DNA from: a virus
Reading direction: 5' to 3' (one strand)
Length of the DNA: 38,183 nt
IMG/VR virus record: IMGVR_UViG_3300047666_000890
Location: 1-38,183 of that record
Positions 7,402 through 29,053 of the stretch are shown one piece after another. The position numbers and the translations under genes were made by a program. The notes under the pieces are model-generated. The model was not told where the DNA came from and made no database searches. It worked only from the letters and a program-made list of their open reading frames with translations. Positions within the stretch are counted from its first letter, which is position 1. Every line of letters begins with the position of its first letter.

Positions 7402-8013
7402 TTATAAATTTTGAAAAATTAAAGTTGTCATTGTCGGTTTTAAAGCCTCGAACAAACCACTAAGTTGAGAACTAGGACTACTAGGAAAAAAAGGAACATT
7501 ATACGGCGGATAAGATGCCAAATCCAAATTTTCTCCTTGAATAATCCAAATAAACCTAGCGGATTTTGAATTCCTAATTGGAATAAAGGGCGGAGTGTAA
7601 GGAGGGTAAGCAACCTCAATTCCGTGTTTTATTGTTATAGATTGACCAAGTATAGCCGCCAAATCAATAAAATCCTGTTCCGTTAATACATTTAAACTTC
7701 TTAATTTAAGAAGAACATTTTTTCTTCTTTCTTCAATATCTGAAGACGTACCAACAAATATATCATCTGGTATTCCAACAGCGCCTTCCCACAAAGCCAT
7801 ATAATTAGGATCATTTGTAGTTAGAATATTAGTTCCGTCCCAAACACTTTGAAATAAATCATCAACTCTTTTAAACTCTCCTGCTAAACCAAGAAACATC
7901 TTATAAAGATTAGAGCCTGCAATATTTTTATTTGTGGCAGTCCTATCATTAAGGAAATACTGCCCTAATACTTGTTGGTTTTCCTCTATTGTGTGCGCTT
8001 GAAAATCAACCAT
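7402..8013 (-). CDS. Baseplate protein, Mu gp48-like (DUF2313/YmfQ)
   Basis: The 203-residue protein has the order typical of the gp48/YmfQ family: a helical N-terminus (EENQQVLGQYFLND, GLAGEFKRVDDLFQSV), the segment NYMALWEGAVGIPDD, then RRKNVLLKLRSLNVLTEQDF and a beta C-terminal domain. The family links the baseplate wedge to the fibres. Two proline/tyrosine segments, YPPYTPPFIP and YPPYNVPFFP, are internal near-repeats. It overlaps the stop of the baseplate J-like gene by 1 nt and precedes the first tail fibre, the same order as in phage Mu. Confidence 0.8.
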   Translation of the reverse strand: MVDFQAHTIEENQQVLGQYFLNDRTATNKNIAGSNLYKMFLGLAGEFKRVDDLFQSVWDGTNILTTNDPNYMALWEGAVGIPDDIFVGTSSDIEERRKNVLLKLRSLNVLTEQDFIDLAAILGQSITIKHGIEVAYPPYTPPFIPIRNSKSARFIWIIQGENLDLASYPPYNVPFFPSSPSSQLSGLFEALKPTMTTLIFQNL

Positions 8014-9554
8014 TATATATAAGTTGGCGTTACATAAGTTCCTAATTCGTTTAATCCAATCACAGTGTCCACAGTAGGAGCAGACAGCGTGTAAATTGGT
8101 ATATTTCCAGTAGAATCTATTGTTCCTTTAATGACAGCATCCAAATCAGCTTTTTTAATATTTTCACCAATATTGTTAGAGATCTTGAAAAAATCTTTAA
8201 GGGAATTATTAATAGCTGTTTGCATCGTAGTCGTGTTAGGACTAAGGTTTGAGAATGTGATATTAATTGGAACTGATGTTGGTGAAAAAACAATAACATC
8301 ATCTGGTGAAACATGAGCTGGTTTAACTTCTAAGATCTTATCTTTAACAACATTAACTTCGGCAGAACTTGGAATGATGGAGTCTTCGTTATCTGTTGTA
8401 AAACCAATTCTAACTTGCCCTTCTTCCACATAAGAGTAAGAAGTGTTAATTGTTCCAGTTGCTGGAGTTGTCGGGCTTCCACTCACTACATAAGCAAAAT
8501 AATCAGCGTCAATAACAATAACTCTTTTTTCAATTACATTATACTCCGCTTGTACTGCTCCAGTCGGGCTAATATAGTTTCCATCAACAAGTCCATGAGC
8601 AATTGAATTAGCTGTAGCAATTTGACCATTTCTAGTAAGGGAGGAAATTAAGATTGAGGCAGAAGTAGTAGAAGGAGAAAATATCCAAACCCTAGTAACG
8701 CCATTAATTTTTTTAGCCTGATTAATTAAAAAATTCTCATTAAAGAAAGAAAAAGGAAATTGAATACGAAACAGAACTCTCGCACGATAAGATTCAGCAC
8801 TTTCTTGGTCAGCTCCGCCAGATATTTCACCAAAAGAAACATAAGCATTGTCGTCAGCGCCAGAGGCAGATAAAGTTAAAACTCCACCAGATGTAATATT
8901 GGTGTTTAATCCTTGAGAAGAGGAAGAGACAGGCACAAGAGCAGTAGTCCATTGCGCCACTAAAGTTCCGCTTGCAGATCCAGCAGTCCCAGCTTGAGTA
9001 AATTGAATTTGGTTAGCAGAAGTCGCAGTAATTCTAACGCTAGTAGCATTAAAATCAGCGGGTGAAGCACCTGTAATAGAGTCAATAATAATTCCACTTG
9101 CTTGATTATGCTCTGCTGTAAAATTAACCGTAACAGTCGTTCCTATTCTTGACATAGAAGCAATAGAAGTTGTGGCTTGGGAAATGGTCGCAGCAGCTTG
9201 AGTTGTATATGTAATTCCAGAAGAGCTTTGTAGAGTAGTGCCAAGAGGAACTATAGTAGTAGCCGTTCCAGATAAAACTATATTTCCAGTTGATCCAACA
9301 GCGGGGCTTCTGACTATTCCGTAAGTATCACCCCATCTTCTAATATAAGCTTCAGAGGCAGTTTGAGGAAAGAACTCCTTAATCATCAAAAGAATTTTCT
9401 TGTAATTATCGTAAATTCTTCTTGATAAAGCTTTAAGTAAGGATGATAAATATGAGGTAGGTAAAGATGCTCCGCTATCAGGTATCTGTGCGGTAAAGTC
9501 TGATGTTATTCTATTGTATACTTCCTTCTCATTAGAAGGTAAATTTAAAGACAT
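8013..9554 (-). CDS. Baseplate J-like wedge protein (Mu gp47-like)
   Basis: The 513-residue protein begins like the gp47/gpJ family (VYNRITSDFTAQIPDSGASL, LSSLLKALSRRIYDNYKKIL, EAYIRRWGDTYGIVR) and continues with the barrel segment IVLSGTATTIVPLGTTL and the conserved GADQESAESYRARVLFRIQF and VTRVWIF. It is longer than a usual gp47 because two beta cassettes of the form ..SxTRxGTxATVxxxxHGLxxG.. are inserted (about residues 140-205 and 295-375). The second shares DNA-level identity with the gene at 19204-20565. It precedes the gp48-like gene with 1 nt overlap. Role: wedge subunit of the contractile baseplate. Confidence 0.85.
   Translation of the reverse strand: MSLNLPSNEKEVYNRITSDFTAQIPDSGASLPTSYLSSLLKALSRRIYDNYKKILLMIKEFFPQTASEAYIRRWGDTYGIVRSPAVGSTGNIVLSGTATTIVPLGTTLQSSSGITYTTQAAATISQATTSIASMSRIGTTVTVNFTAEHNQASGIIIDSITGASPADFNATSVRITATSANQIQFTQAGTAGSASGTLVAQWTTALVPVSSSSQGLNTNITSGGVLTLSASGADDNAYVSFGEISGGADQESAESYRARVLFRIQFPFSFFNENFLINQAKKINGVTRVWIFSPSTTSASILISSLTRNGQIATANSIAHGLVDGNYISPTGAVQAEYNVIEKRVIVIDADYFAYVVSGSPTTPATGTINTSYSYVEEGQVRIGFTTDNEDSIIPSSAEVNVVKDKILEVKPAHVSPDDVIVFSPTSVPINITFSNLSPNTTTMQTAINNSLKDFFKISNNIGENIKKADLDAVIKGTIDSTGNIPIYTLSAPTVDTVIGLNELGTYVTPTYI
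8626..8648. repeat. 23-bp direct repeat, copy 1 (coding ISSLTRNG)
   Basis: This stretch is identical over 23 bases to 20354-20376, 12 kb away in the tail-terminator-like gene. Both are read on the minus strand in the same frame as ISSLTRNG. In the same two genes a second block, encoding SGSPTTPATG (near 8450-8490 and 19909-19940), is also nearly identical. The pair shows a beta domain shared by recombination or duplication. Confidence 0.85.
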
Positions 9555-17471: not shown

Positions 17472-17490
17472 TAGTCATAACATACCACTA
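17472..17490. promoter_or_regulatory. Shared 19-bp motif, copy 1 (terminase leader)
   Basis: TAGTCATAACATACCACTA differs at one base from the other two copies (28735-28753 and 33083-33101). The ends form a weak dyad (TAGT..ACTA). Here its last A is the first base of the terminase start codon. It lies 102 nt upstream of the leftward gene at 17370. Confidence 0.75.
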
Positions 17491-18962
17491 TGGATCACAG
17501 AAACCTCGCATTAATTGCCGAAGCAGAAGCTAATGAGTCACTACGATTAAGTTTTAGAGACTATTTCAAGAAATATGCTTACCCATTTATCCATCCTGGC
17601 AGCCCACTAATTCAAACTTGGAGCATTGACTTGATGTGTGAATATGCACAAGCTTTTGCAGATGGGGAAATACCGAGGCTAATAGTAAATATACCACCTG
17701 GGTTAATGAAATCCACGATCTGGTCATCAGCTCTCCCCTCTTATATTTTAGGACATAGACCCCATGATAAAAACTTCGCAATTTCAAATAAAGAAAACCT
17801 AGTCAATAGAAATATTGGCTGGACTAAAAGAATCACCGAGACACCTAGATATAAAAGTATATTTCCAGATTTTAAAATAGATGATAGGAAAAACACAGAG
17901 ACACATTTTAGAACTACTAAGGGCGGAGAGATGCAGGGTTTTGCTACAGAAGGAAATATCACAGGAGAAAGGGGAAACAACCTAATCTTTGATGATTATA
18001 TGTCTTCCACGATGATCCAATCAGAAACAACCAAATTAAGATTACTGGGTAAATTTGATGACACTTTTGAACGAAGAGCAGACGTTATCAGGAACGCTAT
18101 TGCAATAGTAGAGCAAAGATTAGATCCCAGTGATTTAACTGGCTTCATTCTAAGGTCAAGACCAGGAGAATATGAACATCTTTGCCTTCCAGTCGAGTTT
18201 GAGAAAAAAGAATTTTACTATATGGGCAACTTTAAAAAAGAAGTAAATAAAGGAGATTTACTAGCCCCAGAGCTTCCATCTTTTACCAGAGCCAAGGTAG
18301 ATCAATTAAAGAATAGGATTGTTGATCCCGATACAGGAATAGCCAACGGTAAGCAGATATATTTCACTCAGTATATGCAAAAGCCAATCGCAGAGGGTGG
18401 AAATATGGTTGATATGAAGTGGTTTCAACGCTTCGACCTTGCTCAAGTTCCTTTTATGCAGTTTGATTCTGTTTATGTGGTTGCAGATACCGCTCAAAAA
18501 GTAAAAGAAATAAATGATCCTTCTGGATTTCTTAAATTTGCCGTAAAAGGTAGTGCGACTTACTTAATTGATAGATATAATAAAAGAGCCATCTACCAAG
18601 ACACAAAAGCAAACCTATTAGCTTTTGCGGGTAAATATCCTTCGGCAGATAAGATACTTATTGAAGATGCTAATACTGGGTCTTCACTAATCCAAGAGCT
18701 TCAAAAAGAATGTGGTTATGGAATAATTGCTCTGTCTCACAAAGGAATAAAAAAAGAAATAAGATTTTACAACTCAACTGGAGCAATGGCAAATGGTAAT
18801 ATCTATCTTCCTAAAGAAGCGACTTGGTTATCTGAATTTGAAGAATCGTTAATGCAGTTTCCAAATGGATCTCACGATGAAGATCCAGATTGTTTAGCTC
18901 ATTTTCTTAATTGGTTTAAAAATAATTCAGTTGATTGGGATAAGATGTTTGCGGTGTTTTAG
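17490..18962 (+). CDS. terL: Terminase large subunit (packaging ATPase and nuclease)
   Basis: The 490-residue protein has a Walker A-like motif (IVNIPPGLMKST, about residues 66-77), Walker B (NLIFDDY, about 165-171) and nuclease acidic motifs: VVADTAQK (Asp about 334), ILIEDANTG (about 391-398) and GSHDEDPDCLAHFLNWF (about 461-477). It pumps DNA into the prohead and cuts the concatemer. The gene is on the plus strand while terS, portal, capsid and tail genes are on the minus strand, and terS is 15 kb away. It has its own promoter and the shared 19-bp motif touches its ATG. No Shine-Dalgarno sequence precedes the start. Confidence 0.93.
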   Translation: MDHRNLALIAEAEANESLRLSFRDYFKKYAYPFIHPGSPLIQTWSIDLMCEYAQAFADGEIPRLIVNIPPGLMKSTIWSSALPSYILGHRPHDKNFAISNKENLVNRNIGWTKRITETPRYKSIFPDFKIDDRKNTETHFRTTKGGEMQGFATEGNITGERGNNLIFDDYMSSTMIQSETTKLRLLGKFDDTFERRADVIRNAIAIVEQRLDPSDLTGFILRSRPGEYEHLCLPVEFEKKEFYYMGNFKKEVNKGDLLAPELPSFTRAKVDQLKNRIVDPDTGIANGKQIYFTQYMQKPIAEGGNMVDMKWFQRFDLAQVPFMQFDSVYVVADTAQKVKEINDPSGFLKFAVKGSATYLIDRYNKRAIYQDTKANLLAFAGKYPSADKILIEDANTGSSLIQELQKECGYGIIALSHKGIKKEIRFYNSTGAMANGNIYLPKEATWLSEFEESLMQFPNGSHDEDPDCLAHFLNWFKNNSVDWDKMFAVF

Positions 18963-19203: not shown

Positions 19204-20565
19204 TTAGTTTAGTTGGTCAACATCACCCGCAATTTCCATTACAGACGTTTCAAATCCTTCATTATCCAAGACATCAAAGTCAAAAGTTCTAAAGGCAAAA
19301 GCATCATCAGCATCAACCGCATCAGATTGATTATACCAGCAAGAAGCTTGAAAGGTGTATTGATGAACATAATAAGAGCCATTAAAATCAAACTTCCCAT
19401 TACTAATAGGCATTAAACTAGAATATCTTATATCTGTCAAGTCGCTTGAAGGTTTAAATCCTAATAAAGCTTTAAAAATAAATGGTTTATAAGAATAAGC
19501 AACGTCTCTGGTTTTAGAATAAAGTAATTGATCGTTAGTTGCCCCACAAGGAATAAATATATAAAGAGTCACATTCTGGTAAGCATTTTCTCTTATCTCA
19601 TTCCCTGTTTGATTAGTGGTTAGCCCATCAGTTCTTGTTGCTTGGTTTTTACTAGAAGTTTCATCACCAACAACAATAAAAGCCCAGTTGGTTGCTTGTC
19701 CATCCGTATTTGCACTTTGGAAAACATTTGTTGCCATGTCATAATCAATAGCTCCAGTAATTGCTTGGTAAATTCTAGCACTCATAGTTCCTTGTGCGGG
19801 AGTTCCTAAAGTATCACAAGCATAGGTAAATGTCGCGGTAGATGGAACAGATGCAACAACTTTATATCCATTATAACCAGCTTTTAAACTAGATAATTGA
19901 GTTATCGAACCAGTCGCTGGGGTTGTTGGGCTTCCAGAAACTTTAAAAATAAATGTTCGAGAATTTATCAACTGCTTAACTTTCAAATACTGTCCAGACT
20001 CAGGAGAAGCACTTTCAGTTGCCCCATGAACTGTGTAAGTAAAAATCCTAGCTGTTGGAACGCTATCAAGACCTGTGTTTTTATTGTAGTTTGGATTACT
20101 AGCCCCACCAACTTGAACTTCAACATTTGAATCATCAACAAATCCGTGGTCTGTTTTTGTTGTTACGGTTGCAGTAGTTCCAGAAATTGTAATGGATAAA
20201 ATCTCAATCAAAGGTGCAGACAAAAGATGATTCTTATCAGTTAATAAAGTTTGCACTCCATTATAATCACTTTGGTCAGATCCAGCAATTTCAACTGTAG
20301 CATTTCCTCTAATTAAAGGGTGGTCACTCGAAGTAATAGCTAAAGCATAAGTTCCATTTCTAGTAAGGGAGGAAATAACAACAGGAACTTTCGCACCATT
20401 AACCAAAACTTGATCTCCAACTTCTAGCTCGTGATCCAATAAGGTTGCGGCAGTTGCAACACTTCCAACTCTAGTGATTGAAGATATTTCTAGGTTAGTT
20501 GTGAAGTCTCCTGTGTATCTAGGGAGAACTGCTTTAAGTTGATTTACTAATTGTTCTGTTTGCAT
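19204..20565 (-). CDS. Tail terminator-like protein with inserted beta-repeat cassettes (Mu gp37-like)
   Basis: The start (MQTEQLVNQLKAVLPRY) and the C-terminal ~185 residues (NWAFIVVGDETSSKNQATRTDG, ENAYQNVTLYIFIPCGATN, SYYVHQYTFQASCWY) look like a tail terminator of the Mu gp37/DUF1834 kind, normally 150-200 residues. Between them (about residues 27-265) lie three or four copies of a beta cassette of the form ISSLTRNGTxAxxxTxxDHxLxxGxxVxVxG...YNG, raising it to 453 residues. One copy shares 23 identical bases with the baseplate J-like gene. Position between the gp10-like gene and the sheath region supports the call. The role is to cap the tail tube and meet the neck. Confidence 0.65.
   Translation of the reverse strand: MQTEQLVNQLKAVLPRYTGDFTTNLEISSITRVGSVATAATLLDHELEVGDQVLVNGAKVPVVISSLTRNGTYALAITSSDHPLIRGNATVEIAGSDQSDYNGVQTLLTDKNHLLSAPLIEILSITISGTTATVTTKTDHGFVDDSNVEVQVGGASNPNYNKNTGLDSVPTARIFTYTVHGATESASPESGQYLKVKQLINSRTFIFKVSGSPTTPATGSITQLSSLKAGYNGYKVVASVPSTATFTYACDTLGTPAQGTMSARIYQAITGAIDYDMATNVFQSANTDGQATNWAFIVVGDETSSKNQATRTDGLTTNQTGNEIRENAYQNVTLYIFIPCGATNDQLLYSKTRDVAYSYKPFIFKALLGFKPSSDLTDIRYSSLMPISNGKFDFNGSYYVHQYTFQASCWYNQSDAVDADDAFAFRTFDFDVLDNEGFETSVMEIAGDVDQLN
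20354..20376. repeat. 23-bp direct repeat, copy 2 (coding ISSLTRNG)
   Basis: Identical to 8626-8648 in the baseplate J-like gene, in the same strand and frame. It lies in the second inserted beta cassette of the tail-terminator-like gene. Confidence 0.85.
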
Positions 20566-21043: not shown

Positions 21044-21435
21044 ATTCTTGTATTAATCAAAGTTGAATCTCCACGAACAGAACATTTTAGAACCATAAAC
21101 TCATACATTCCCTCAAGGTTGGGAATAACTTCCACAATCTCGTAATTATTGCCATCGAATTGTAGGAGGTGAGTTTTATTCACTTTAACAGAGCCGTGCC
21201 TAACATAAAAATGGTCAGTAATCTTTCCAATCATATTAACGCCATCAAAAATTTCCTCTCCATTGACGGATCTTTGCATAGCCCACATTGAAATAACTAG
21301 GGTAAGGTTTAAGTTAGGATCAACAACACTTGTGTTTGTAGCTTGCTTGGTCTTCTTGTAGATAGAAATAAAAGACTTCATATCTCCTATACAAACTTTA
21401 GAAGCTCTTGGTTTTATCCTTTTACAGTTTCCCAT
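21040..21435 (-). CDS. Head-tail joining protein, SPP1 gp16-like
   Basis: The 131-residue protein contains the features of the gp16 stopper family: KSFISIYKKTKQATNTSVVD, a W in LVISMWAMQRSVNGEEIFDG, then ITDHFYVRHGSVKVNKTHLL and FDGNNYEIVEVIPNLEG with final strand YEFMVLKCSV. The family forms a beta-barrel ring closing the head exit channel. It overlaps the connector gene by 1 nt. An upstream extension (MGNCKRIKPRASKVCIG) precedes the conserved part; M19 (MKSFIS) is an alternative start. Confidence 0.75.
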   Translation of the reverse strand: MGNCKRIKPRASKVCIGDMKSFISIYKKTKQATNTSVVDPNLNLTLVISMWAMQRSVNGEEIFDGVNMIGKITDHFYVRHGSVKVNKTHLLQFDGNNYEIVEVIPNLEGMYEFMVLKCSVRGDSTLINTRI

Positions 21436-22079
21436 TAGAAGTCTACAATTTTAAATTGACCGAATAATTGAGTGGCGGCATTCATATCGTCAGAATTGGC
21501 GCAATCGCCTCTATTTTCATAAAGATAGCTAATCATTTGCAAAAGTGCTTGTTTCACATCATCAGGAACAAAATCAGAATCTGCACCATATCCAGCAACA
21601 AATGTAATTTTAACAGCTTGTTTTCTAGTGTCGACTATAGGGAAAGTTCCATCTTCGATAAGGTAGATAGCCGAATAATCAGGCAAATCCGTAAAGTAAT
21701 AATTGGAAGAATTTAAAGTAGTCAAAACGCCACCAATATAATATTCAATCGAAGTAATAGATTGTAGTTGCGATTTCCTTAATTTGATTCCATTGTCTTT
21801 ATATTGAGGACTTATAGGGCTAACACCTGAATAATAAGAAATGCCATCAGCACAAGGAAAGTTATCAAGATATGTTTTGTAAGTCTTGTTAATCAAATCT
21901 CTTCCTGTTATTTTCTCAAAATATCCAGAAGCAGCTTTAATGACCGCAGTTATTAGGGCGTGTTCAGATAAAATACATTGTGGTATTTTTAACCAATCTT
22001 GAACATCTGTAATTTTAATTGGCAGATTAGTTGTTCCAGATACAAACTTATAATTTAGAGGTTGTTCAAATATTGTCAT
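21435..22079 (-). CDS. Head-tail connector protein, gp6/gp15-like
   Basis: The 214-residue protein has the helical adaptor pattern: VQDWLKIP, HALITAVIKAASGYFEKITG, RDLINKTYKTYLDNFP, a beta part (LQSITSIEYYIGG), then VKITFVAGYGADSDFVPDDVKQALLQMISYLYENRGD read from about residue 160, which is the signature of gp6-like adaptors that bind the portal. It is the first gene of the neck set and is followed by the gp16-like gene with 1-nt overlap. Confidence 0.8.
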   Translation of the reverse strand: MTIFEQPLNYKFVSGTTNLPIKITDVQDWLKIPQCILSEHALITAVIKAASGYFEKITGRDLINKTYKTYLDNFPCADGISYYSGVSPISPQYKDNGIKLRKSQLQSITSIEYYIGGVLTTLNSSNYYFTDLPDYSAIYLIEDGTFPIVDTRKQAVKITFVAGYGADSDFVPDDVKQALLQMISYLYENRGDCANSDDMNAATQLFGQFKIVDF

Positions 22080-22096
22080 TTTATTATAAAATAAAT

Positions 22097-23476
22097 TTAA
22101 GCCACTCTAGTTAAACTAAAAATTCTATCACTTAATGATACGCTTCCTGAAATAACTCTCCACCTCACGTCAATAACTTGACCTCCAGTAGAAGGGATGA
22201 CAGATAGTAAAGAAATATCAGCCGAACTATTAAGATTGCTTCTAGTCCTGTCTGAGTAAGGAACTAATGCATTATTAATATAAAAACTTACATGAAAATG
22301 ACCTGATTTAGAAGTGGAGGTATATTGTTGTCCAGATACTGTTGAAGTCGTAAAGGTTACAAAAGCTCCTAAGTTAGTTCCGACATCACCAGTAATAATT
22401 GACGCTCCAGTGCTGGCAATATTGCCATTGCTTGTGAATATTGCAAAACTATCTAGCACTCCAATATCAAGATATGAGCAAGAAATAGGTGCGATGACGG
22501 TAGCAGTTGTCATATTTATTGCGCCTGCTGTAGAAAATAACCTTCCATTTACTGTAGTTCCCCCGCCAACGGTAACAATACCATTATTAGCAATAAAAGT
22601 TCCGTGCATAGTACTGGTTGCTGCAATATTCATTGCGCCATTAGTAATAAAAAAGACATTACAAGCAGAAGCTCCGTCAAATAGATTAATTATTGCTGAA
22701 GCCCCTGCTGTGAAAGTAGTGCTAAATCTAAATATGAAAATTGCATTAGAGTCGCCCTCGGCATCTAATGTTAAGGTTGATGATGCAGCTAGTGTGCCAG
22801 CGCCAGTAATATCATAAATCCCTGCTGTTAATGTTTCAGTAACAAATCCGATGGGGTGGGTAGCCGTTCCAGTTTCTCCACTAATAGTAGCATGAGCAAT
22901 AATTAAATCTGTCGCTCCTTGCGCTGTAATAAAATCAGAAGTTAAATCGAATTGTGAATTAAATTGTGCTTGATAAGTTCCTGCCTCTGTGGGCGTAAAA
23001 GCCAAACCAGTAATTAATGTATCAACATCAGATGAAGTTGATACTGCGGTGTCTGTTGCTATTGAGTTATGACCCCACGTAACTTTAGCCGCCTCATTTG
23101 CTTTTTCAGAGTGAAGATTAGTAACTGGAGTTGTCGAAGCCACGGTAAAAGGGGCAGTTCCTGTTGCTACAGTTGAAACTATTGTATTAAAACTTGGGTT
23201 ATCTGCATCGGTCAATCCTGCGACATTTCCTTTATTTAAAGTTTGGAAAGATTTATCTCCCCTTAAATATTGCGCTGTTGTTCCTGCTGGAATGTTAGGT
23301 TCTTTTGCTGCATTAACTGCGACAATCTCAGCATCTACAAATGCTTTATTTGTAAAATCAGTTGATAATACTGGTAAAGCAGAAGATCCCATACCGGAAG
23401 TTCCAGCTCCACCACCAACGATGATTGCAGTGTTTGGGGTGTTATTTTCTATTTGATTTACTTTTAATATGCTCAT
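22097..23476 (-). CDS. Fibre-like virion protein with permuted DUF3494 (ice-binding-like) domain inside a jelly roll
   Basis: Residues 1-120 are fibre-like (FVDAEIVAVNAAKEPNIPAG, TTAQYLRGDKSFQTLNKGNV). Residues about 140-178 (ITGLAFTPTEAGTYQAQFN) and 390-459 (HFHVSFYINNALVPYSD, VIDVRWRVISGSVSLSDRIF) look like two halves of one C1q/TNF-type jelly roll. Between them lie about 200 residues matching DUF3494 but in swapped order: the usual C-terminal part first (TLTLDAEGDSNAIFIFRF, SACNVFFITNGAMNIAATST, TVNGRLFSTAGAINMTTATV, about 184-333), then the usual N-terminal part (LDIGVLDSFAIF, STGASIITGDVGTNLGAFVT, about 335-382). DUF3494 proteins are beta-solenoids, some of which bind ice. Here it is probably an adhesive or decoration domain. 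It starts in an ATGA overlap with the 23473 gene. Confidence 0.75.
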   Translation of the reverse strand: MSILKVNQIENNTPNTAIIVGGGAGTSGMGSSALPVLSTDFTNKAFVDAEIVAVNAAKEPNIPAGTTAQYLRGDKSFQTLNKGNVAGLTDADNPSFNTIVSTVATGTAPFTVASTTPVTNLHSEKANEAAKVTWGHNSIATDTAVSTSSDVDTLITGLAFTPTEAGTYQAQFNSQFDLTSDFITAQGATDLIIAHATISGETGTATHPIGFVTETLTAGIYDITGAGTLAASSTLTLDAEGDSNAIFIFRFSTTFTAGASAIINLFDGASACNVFFITNGAMNIAATSTMHGTFIANNGIVTVGGGTTVNGRLFSTAGAINMTTATVIAPISCSYLDIGVLDSFAIFTSNGNIASTGASIITGDVGTNLGAFVTFTTSTVSGQQYTSTSKSGHFHVSFYINNALVPYSDRTRSNLNSSADISLLSVIPSTGGQVIDVRWRVISGSVSLSDRIFSLTRVA

Positions 23477-23712
23477 TGTATTTCCAATAAAGTTGTAGGA
23501 GGAATTGTGAGTGTAACTCCTGAATTTATAATCATCATGCCATTGCTAAAATAGTTCTTATTGGCATCTAATGTGGTATTAACCAAAACAGTATTGCGGT
23601 GACTTGTTAAAAAGTCTTTATTAGTGACCCTTAACTGGTTTTCAGAGGAGGATTCTACAACCCCTCCGCTTTTTCCGACAATGACTGCTTGAACCCAAGA
23701 AAAGAATCTCAT
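23473..23712 (-). CDS. Small virion-associated protein of head-fibre block
   Basis: The 79-residue protein ends in a short beta segment, GMMIINSGVTLTIPPTTLLEIQ by sense of its last 22 residues, with the TLTIPPTTLLEI pattern that is common at the end of small phage structural proteins. The start FFSWVQAVIVGKSGG is mildly hydrophobic. It overlaps the downstream DUF3494 gene by 4 nt (ATGA) and shares a 1-nt junction with the upstream gene, so it is co-translated with them. Function is not known; a base or partner of the fibre protein is inference. Confidence 0.5.
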   Translation of the reverse strand: MRFFSWVQAVIVGKSGGVVESSSENQLRVTNKDFLTSHRNTVLVNTTLDANKNYFSNGMMIINSGVTLTIPPTTLLEIQ

Positions 23713-26600: not shown

Positions 26601-27905
26601 TTATTTTCCGTAAAAAACTTTTACGCCTTCTCTAAGAACAATTCCTTGAGCTGCATAAGAAGATTTTCCAGCTGGAACTGCGCCATCAAGAATATTGGTG
26701 ATGCTTGCATCATATCCAATAGTACCGATAGAACTAGGAATCAACTTATATGAAGTTTTGAAGTCAGCAATAATAGCTAGTAATTTACCAGTATTATCAG
26801 CTCCATCTACATAGTCAGTAGAAATAGTTGCAACTCCGTCTACAAGAGATTTGTAATTACCAATTTGATTATGCTCAAACACTCTAACAGCGAATGCTTT
26901 TTCTGGAGTTACAAATCTAGTAACGCCATCTGGAGTAGTTACAAATTGCTCAAGAGGAAGATGACCATCAGAAACAGTGGTAGAGAATAGAGTGTTTAAA
27001 AACTTTCTACTAACATACATGGTAGCTTCAGGAATATAATCTACTTTCAAGTTAGTTGATAACAATCTCAAATCTTTACGAGCGGCATTATCAGCAGGAG
27101 CATCATCAGTAGTTGAAGCAATTTTACCAATGTCGCCTTTAATAGCTGCATCAATGATGTTTTGGAAAACTTTAGCTGCCAACTTTCTTCTGTAACGAGA
27201 ATCAAGTGCTGTTAAGTTTTTTTGAAGAGTGCTTAATTGATTTCCACCAGCAAGAGCATTTTGAATAACTTTTGAAGACAAAATCATTTTAGCTTTAACT
27301 TCTTCCATTGACAATTTAATCAATGATTTCTTTACAGCTTCACTAAGTTGAGCGGCATCCATTTCGTTAGCTTCATACAAATCAACAAGTGATTCATCAA
27401 AACCTTCCCAAGCAACAGAACCGTCATTTGAACCAACAGCACCCATAAAATCAATATCATTCAAAATGATAGTGTTAGGTTGTTTGTTAATGTCAATTTC
27501 GCCCATTCTCAAAGGTGAGTCAATAAATCCACCAGTAGTAGTAGCATCAGAAAATCTGATAGCTTTTACTTCTTCTTGATTCAAATCAGCAGTTTCTTTG
27601 TTTTTGAATTTGCCAGCAATATATTCTAAAGATTTTTTAGTTTCAGCTTCATCAACTAGAGACTTAGAACCGTGAGATCCTGGTCTAAGTGACAATGCTT
27701 CACGAGCTTTAGCTTCAGTTTCAAACTCTTGACGAGCTTTCTTTTCAGCTACAATTTCTTGAGTCAAAGCTTCGTTTTTAACTTCCAAGTCTTTACTTTT
27801 GGTTTCTTGTTCAACCATTTTAGCATTTAAGCTTTCATTACTTTTGATAGTAGCTTCTTTAAGAGCAGCCACCTCATCAGTAAATTTCTTCATTTCTTCG
27901 GACAT
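26601..27905 (-). CDS. Major capsid protein, HK97 fold
   Basis: The 434-residue protein has an N-terminal coiled-coil delta domain (residues about 1-75, VAALKEATIKSNESLNAKMV, EIVAEKKARQEFETEAKARE) of the kind that acts as internal scaffold and is cut by the prohead protease, then SLRPGSHGSKSLVDE as the likely processing region. The core shows HK97-family features: TTTGGFIDSPLRMGEI, SVAWEGFDESLVDLYEANEM, IDAAIKGDIGKIAS, ATMYVSRKFLNTLF, VRVFEHNQIGNYKS. It starts 1 nt after the protease stop. An A-rich leader with no Shine-Dalgarno precedes the ATG. Confidence 0.87.
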   Translation of the reverse strand: MSEEMKKFTDEVAALKEATIKSNESLNAKMVEQETKSKDLEVKNEALTQEIVAEKKARQEFETEAKAREALSLRPGSHGSKSLVDEAETKKSLEYIAGKFKNKETADLNQEEVKAIRFSDATTTGGFIDSPLRMGEIDINKQPNTIILNDIDFMGAVGSNDGSVAWEGFDESLVDLYEANEMDAAQLSEAVKKSLIKLSMEEVKAKMILSSKVIQNALAGGNQLSTLQKNLTALDSRYRRKLAAKVFQNIIDAAIKGDIGKIASTTDDAPADNAARKDLRLLSTNLKVDYIPEATMYVSRKFLNTLFSTTVSDGHLPLEQFVTTPDGVTRFVTPEKAFAVRVFEHNQIGNYKSLVDGVATISTDYVDGADNTGKLLAIIADFKTSYKLIPSSIGTIGYDASITNILDGAVPAGKSSYAAQGIVLREGVKVFYGK

Positions 27906-28757: not shown

Positions 28758-28982
28758 ATGCCAAGAAACGGATCAGACGGTTGCTTATTTATCAAGAAAA
28801 TGGAGAAATTTTATCCAAAGCTTTATAAAGAAGGAAAAATAAAAGAGCCAACCAGAGAGTCTTTTATGGTAGATTATCTTGAAATGGATAAGAACTCTTG
28901 GAAAAATTTTAATAATACTGGAATTAGAAAAATTTATTACAGGATTTTAGAATTATTAGAAAAAGCCTATCCTAAATGCTAG
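28758..28982 (+). CDS. Unknown 74-residue basic protein, end overlaps tRNA-Thr
   Basis: The protein is basic and helical: IKKMEKFYPKLYKEGKIKEP, DKNSWKNFNNTGIRKIYYRI, LELLEKAYPKC. The C-terminal half could be a small nucleic-acid-binding helix bundle, but no family was recognised. Its stop codon TAG (28980-28982) is inside the acceptor stem of the following tRNA, so gene and tRNA share 5 nt and are probably on one transcript. The shared 19-bp motif lies just before the ATG, with no Shine-Dalgarno sequence. Confidence 0.6.
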   Translation: MPRNGSDGCLFIKKMEKFYPKLYKEGKIKEPTRESFMVDYLEMDKNSWKNFNNTGIRKIYYRILELLEKAYPKC

Positions 28983-29053
28983 AATAGCTCAGTTGGTAGA
29001 GCGTTCGCCTTGTAAGCGATTGGTCGAGGGTTCGAATCCTTCTTCTAGCACCA
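28978..29053 (+). tRNA. tRNA-Thr(UGU)
   Basis: All arms are visible: acceptor GCTAGAA / TTCTAGC with A and encoded CCA; D arm GCTC / GAGC with loop AGTTGGTA; anticodon loop CTTGTAA (anticodon TGT, decoding ACA); T arm GAGGG TTCGAAT CCTTC. Length 76 nt. The outer pair of the anticodon stem is a T-T mismatch. ACA is a favoured Thr codon in this AT-rich genome. CCA is encoded, which is usual for phage tRNAs. Confidence 0.95.

Follow-up and report, generated by a model that had tools for sequence, protein, structure and literature searches.

How can a fibre protein of a phage carry a DUF3494 (ice-binding-like) domain with its segments in swapped order, and what would such a domain do on a virion? 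The question is raised by a 459-aa reading frame at 22097-23476 on the minus strand of a 38-kb IMG/VR virus record, a single metagenomic contig that was analysed over its full length of 38,183 nt (the window). The frame has an ATG start and its coordinates include the stop codon. A sequence-only reading had proposed that a circularly permuted DUF3494 domain is inserted here into one C1q/TNF-like jelly roll, and had named structure prediction and a search of metagenomic phages as ways of checking this. The results below lead us to an explanation that, taken as a whole, is probably right: the protein is a virion fibre with a permuted DUF3494 domain nested in its jelly-roll tip, predicted to bind a surface or receptor, derived from a tandem protein and exchanged between phages and bacteria.

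The structural genes of the window, identified by profile matches including PHROGs, form a myovirus set of portal, protease, connectors, sheath, tape measure and baseplate. The fibre gene (22097..23476, minus strand) is flanked by capsid-side genes and a head-tail adaptor gene (21435-22079; phrog_442, 1.4e-15). The presumed capsid gene (26601-27905) is without family match and was assigned from its position after the protease. Residues 1-117 of the fibre (23126..23476, minus strand) make up the N-terminal attachment or shaft part, with tblastn matches over residues 35-110, a match to phrog_38418 (2.7e-07) and, at residues 57-95, the fibre motif AGTTAQYLRGDKSFQTLNKGNVAGLTDADN, which is common to minor tail proteins of actinophages. 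A position in the structural cluster, judged by neighbours with PHROGs matches, and a modular C-terminal tip, seen in relatives as one C-terminal module behind unlike N-terminal parts, are the features of a receptor-binding fibre. The GC content of the insert is 40.5%, compared with 35-39% across other parts of the gene, and is no outlier.

Directly upstream, a 79-codon reading frame just under the usual length limit was read from the sequence at 23473..23712 (minus strand). Its stop overlaps the start of the fibre gene (ATGA) and its own start overlaps the stop of the preceding gene (TAATG). It is probably translationally coupled, and its product may assist the fibre in attachment or assembly.

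A scan with the presumed capsid protein found no close relatives of the window phage, so that there is neither a sister genome with a different tip nor a host call. The terminase is less than 30% identical to phages of several hosts. The large terminase gene (17490-18962, plus strand) lies on the opposite strand amid the minus-strand structural cluster, between the neck and sheath genes. A short repeat domain, phrog_9998 ('ISSLTRNG...SGSPTTPATG'), is common to a putative tail-end protein and the baseplate J protein, encoded at 19204-20565 and 8013-9554 (BLASTP 2e-05), and a tRNA-Thr(TGT) gene (28978-29053, plus strand) separates the structural cluster from a block of small plus-strand genes.

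The fibre protein matched PF11999 with an E value of 1.5e-26 and 93.8 bits, well above the curated cut-off of 28.7. This was a single forward-order match over residues 145-327, which masks the permutation. Read at face value, it would mean that the natural order is present and that the N-like segment further on resembles the family by chance or belongs to an incomplete second domain. C- and N-segment HMMs were trained solely on cellular proteins from the genome scan. The C-segment profile matched residues 184-328 (8.7e-40). The N-segment profile matched residues 335-385 (1.4e-14) and nowhere else; against the jelly-roll flank it gave no match at E 0.1. Joined in rotated order, the C-N profile scored 186.7 bits over residues 184-388 and covered model positions 1-205 of 207. 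The natural-order N-C profile scored 139.2 bits, 47.5 bits behind, and its match began at model position 53, beyond the N segment. Of 64 permuted-type sequences, counting near-duplicate loci, 62 likewise preferred the rotated profile, and all 8 cellular tandem controls outside the training set preferred the natural-order one. The flank itself, moreover, matches insert-free jelly rolls (below), and it is very improbable that the domain stands in its natural order.

The swapped order proposed from the sequence was thus borne out. The window protein holds one whole DUF3494 domain, rotated and with no part missing. In the family the chain runs from coil 1 through the helix to coils 2-6; here it runs from the helix through coils 2-6 to coil 1. 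The bracing α-helix comes first (residues 183-199; 22880..22930, minus strand), and the cellular C profile starts within it, at 184. Coils β2-β6 follow at residues 200-334 (22475..22879, minus strand) and the N-terminal coil, β1, comes last at residues 335-388 (22313..22474, minus strand). The start given earlier for the domain, residue 184, was correct; its end is at 388, as reached by the C-N profile, rather than at 382, and the second half of the jelly roll begins at about 391. The insert is a circular permutant of the DUF3494 family, not an ordinary member. In agreement with this, phmmer aligned query residues 181-403 with residues 54-282 of the tandem DUF3494 protein 5uyt_A, that is, with the C-part of its domain 1 and the N-part of its domain 2, and a separate alignment placed query residues 338-376 on residues 6-44, at the N-terminus of the chain.

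The flanks were analysed with HMMs built without the window sequence. The first (residues 138-180, strands A-C; 22937..23065, minus strand) was matched over 138-179 (4.1e-13) and the second (residues 391-459, strands D-H; 22100..22306, minus strand) over 394-458 (6.6e-17). Three natural proteins that lack the insert were matched by a profile of the spliced flanks, each time across the junction. They are L034:3532-4203 (2.1e-24; entered under the name of its copy in L068), L086:1222-1887 (1.9e-22) and the phage protein L083:3827-4303 (3.4e-23). The L034 and L086 genes share their bacterial arrays with paralogues that do carry the insert, and the L083 gene sits in a phage structural cluster. By themselves the flanks gave no match in PDB, PHROGs or Pfam at cut-off. 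The insert-free L034 protein matched BclA_C in Pfam at 1.4e-05, under the cut-off, and the window protein gave no match to a named Pfam family of this fold. An AlphaFold2 model of the insert-free jelly roll from three sequences reached a pLDDT of 53 and was not taken into the fold search, so the argument from the empty site rests on sequence.

The structure of residues 103-459 was predicted with AlphaFold2 as a monomer, from a 28-row alignment consisting entirely of permuted relatives. The model (pLDDT 89.1, pTM 0.76) shows jelly-roll strands, the helix at 183-199 (model residues 81-97), a solenoid with pLDDT mostly 91-98 in the coils after the helix, and further jelly-roll strands (model residues 291-356). 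The single solenoid between jelly-roll strands is as the sequence-only reading had anticipated. In the model, and by Foldseek, it is a β-solenoid braced by a helix as in DUF3494. It superposed on 7bwx with 1.3 Å over 132 columns and on 5b5h with 1.8 Å over 148. With 5uyt the value was 17 Å over 208 columns at 35% identity, as would be expected if the match spans C1 to N2 across two domains. The Foldseek neighbours of the flanks were the TNF-like lectins BC2L-C and PLTL, ExsFA and caprin-2 C1q. A viral 224-aa protein aligned with the model over 339 columns at 3.5 Å, which may be read as both flanks falling on one jelly roll. High-pLDDT strands on both sides of the insert, the PDB neighbours and the spliced-profile match to insert-free proteins all agree: the two flanks are halves of one TNF/C1q-like jelly roll, and insertion into such a domain, as originally proposed, is upheld. 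The model also matched a protein of the giant virus Hyperionvirus (A0A3G5A745 in BFVD), annotated DUF3494; the fold is thus present in another virus group.

The crystal structure of TisAFP7 suggests why a permuted domain could be seated in a loop. There the stacking order of the coils is 1-6-5-4-3-2, and the helix falls between coils 1 and 2 (PMC7966756). If the chain is cut between coil 1 and the helix and coil 6 is joined to coil 1, the permuted chain would run 2-3-4-5-6-1 in space, so that coils follow chain order and both ends lie together. This would permit a seat in a loop.

As the window is one metagenomic contig, the architecture might have been an assembly artefact or a single chance fusion. 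Viral scans were repeated with growing alignments; the initial single-sequence viral scan and a three-sequence genome scan had given no matches. The later scans yielded 15 distinct copies of the module, each reading flank-C-N-flank, from 13 other viral contigs, and two additional truncated viral contigs. The same architecture was found in several bacterial assemblies, and an artefact or isolated fusion is hardly credible. The phage search called for in the sequence-only reading thus gave the same domain order in many other phages. The viral module is always C-terminal, and the parts that precede it differ greatly in length and make-up, some being short linkers and others long repeats, collagen-like ones among them. 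No natural-order DUF3494 domain was found among the viral records searched. Among INPHARED phages only the N-terminal fibre motif was matched, with no relative of the DUF3494 domain or the flanks.

The module also occurs off virions, which the sequence-only reading had not foreseen. In Flavobacteriales chromosomes it is carried, with the same nesting site, by proteins with signal-peptide-like starts encoded in gene arrays. Three Flavobacteriales genomes gave 13, 11 and 5 PF11999 matches, additional module-bearing genomes were present in the family sample and the order sample, and one bacterial copy is part of a contig of 1.7 Mb. The canonical cellular ice-binding proteins that came up in these scans were N-C-N-C. 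In Bacteroidota/Flavobacteriaceae MAGs (L032, L033 and L034) and in G657 C20, as many as 13 genes for secreted fibre-like proteins bearing the permuted module make up an array, and the arrays adjoin repeat-rich (YadA-like) fibre genes and insert-free paralogues. No description of this diversified family of surface-protein arrays was found. At L007:9195-9650, beside a full module gene, a 151-aa gene encodes a helix-like stretch, the DUF3494 N segment and the second half of the jelly roll, without coils 2-6.

The permuted unit is likely to stem from an ice-binding protein with the tandem arrangement N1-C1-N2-C2: taking C1-N2 out of it would be a single step to the rotated order. The alignment that phmmer made with 5uyt passes straight through the insert, with a linker 8 residues shorter in the window protein. 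In a tree of C segments the phage and bacterial permuted forms were intermixed, and the window copy was on a long branch; in this tree the label canon_single covers some permuted genes that are cut off, and the label host_perm includes L084, which is a viral contig. The free tree requires 4 changes. A single permuted clade (p-AU 0.44) is not rejected, nor is it shown. The shared insertion site and the homologous flanks argue for one origin. Copies of the module appear to have moved between phages and bacteria, in a direction that the tree does not settle.

These features suggest how the tip may be built and used. The N-terminal part of the fibre would anchor and space a C-terminal tip formed by the jelly roll, which is probably trimeric. 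The whole solenoid would be seated in the C-D loop, between the third and fourth main strands, and with both of its ends at one spot it would be carried out of the loop on a two-stranded stalk. By jelly-roll topology the C-D loop should be far from the N-terminal shaft, making the solenoid the outermost part. The most likely function of the tip is receptor or surface binding, with the exposed faces of the solenoid most likely binding a cell-surface or polysaccharide ligand during adsorption. On the secreted fibre-like proteins of Flavobacteriales the same module would serve as an adhesion tip. DUF3494 proteins have been described as binding ice and substrates and as having roles in surface adhesion (PMC12337378).

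The solenoid could instead bind ice, so that the virion adheres to ice crystals or to ice-associated hosts, in keeping with its nearest solved relatives, which are ice-binding proteins, and with cellular relatives that include Flavobacterium frigoris and Polaribacter. DUF3494 is, however, found also in habitats without ice and in proteins that act in adhesion (PMC12337378), and its ice-binding sites have no consensus motif (PMC7966756), so that sequence cannot reveal ice binding. Moreover, MAGs with bacterial copies carry April, May and November dates in their names, and arrays of 11-13 divergent paralogues resemble variable adhesins rather than antifreeze. Ice binding therefore looks unlikely. 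Adhesion appears to be the better reading, given that the module is C-terminal on fibres whose N-terminal parts vary, that it is present both in phages and in diversified arrays of secreted bacterial proteins, and that it has lectin-like structural neighbours.

Those neighbours, the sugar-binding lectins BC2L-C and PLTL, also allow a different division of labour, in which the ligand site is in the jelly roll, as in TNF-like lectins, and the solenoid has a passive role in spacing or stabilising the tip. Insert-free versions do occur, and the coils of the module are better conserved than its jelly roll, with mean pairwise identities of 0.46 and 0.35-0.38 respectively. Retention of a 205-residue insert at one site in many phages and bacteria would, however, be costly for a spacer, and the predicted topology puts the solenoid outermost. 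We regard a passive role as rather improbable, and favour a solenoid that itself contacts the ligand.

A more speculative extension, to which we give limited credence, is that the permuted DUF3494 domain, its solenoid straightened and loop-insertable, is an adhesion cassette shared by phages and their hosts. Flavobacteriales would then display up to 11-13 variants on secreted fibres, and phages the same cassette on virion tips. Both would draw on a single repertoire kept in exchange, and the ligands recognised might be the same, or might be the fibres of the other party.

The locus is a clear example, from nature, of circular permutation serving to nest one domain in another, and both the tandem type of parent and a receiving domain without the insert are at hand for comparison. 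It takes an 'ice-binding' fold beyond its usual setting, to virions and to the surface fibres of bacteria, so a PF11999 match in viral sequences should not be taken to mean an antifreeze gene. It also provides a candidate receptor-binding module, common to phages and Flavobacteriales, that is open to testing.

In the open-access literature (subscription papers lying outside this coverage) we found no paper that links DUF3494 to phages or to permutation. Phages and extracellular contractile injection systems have fibres whose C1q-type tip is used for target binding (PMC12923769). The window protein has a C1q-type fibre tip in common with these; a search of that paper's text found no nested DUF3494 domain and showed ice binding in the reference list only. 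With DUF3494/PF11999 ice-binding proteins (5uyt, FfIBP 4nu2, TisAFP 3vn3/5b5h and AnpIBP 7bwx) it shares a complete domain (205/207 positions) and, in the model, the helix and β-solenoid; it differs in its rotated order and in being nested in another domain. The tandem proteins of Bacteroidota (Flavobacterium, Polaribacter; N-C-N-C) come closest in order, their internal C1-N2 (5uyt 54-282) aligning through the phage insert. There, however, C1 and N2 belong to two domains, whereas in the phage protein they must close on each other. The joined flanks have the same fold as TNF/C1q-like jelly rolls (BC2L-C N-terminal domain, PLTL, BclA/ExsFA and caprin-2 C1q), but are broken after strand C by 205-210 residues, and matches to the Pfam families are all under cut-off. 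Thus both parent folds are known, and it is their permuted, nested combination and its distribution over phages and bacteria that appear to be new.
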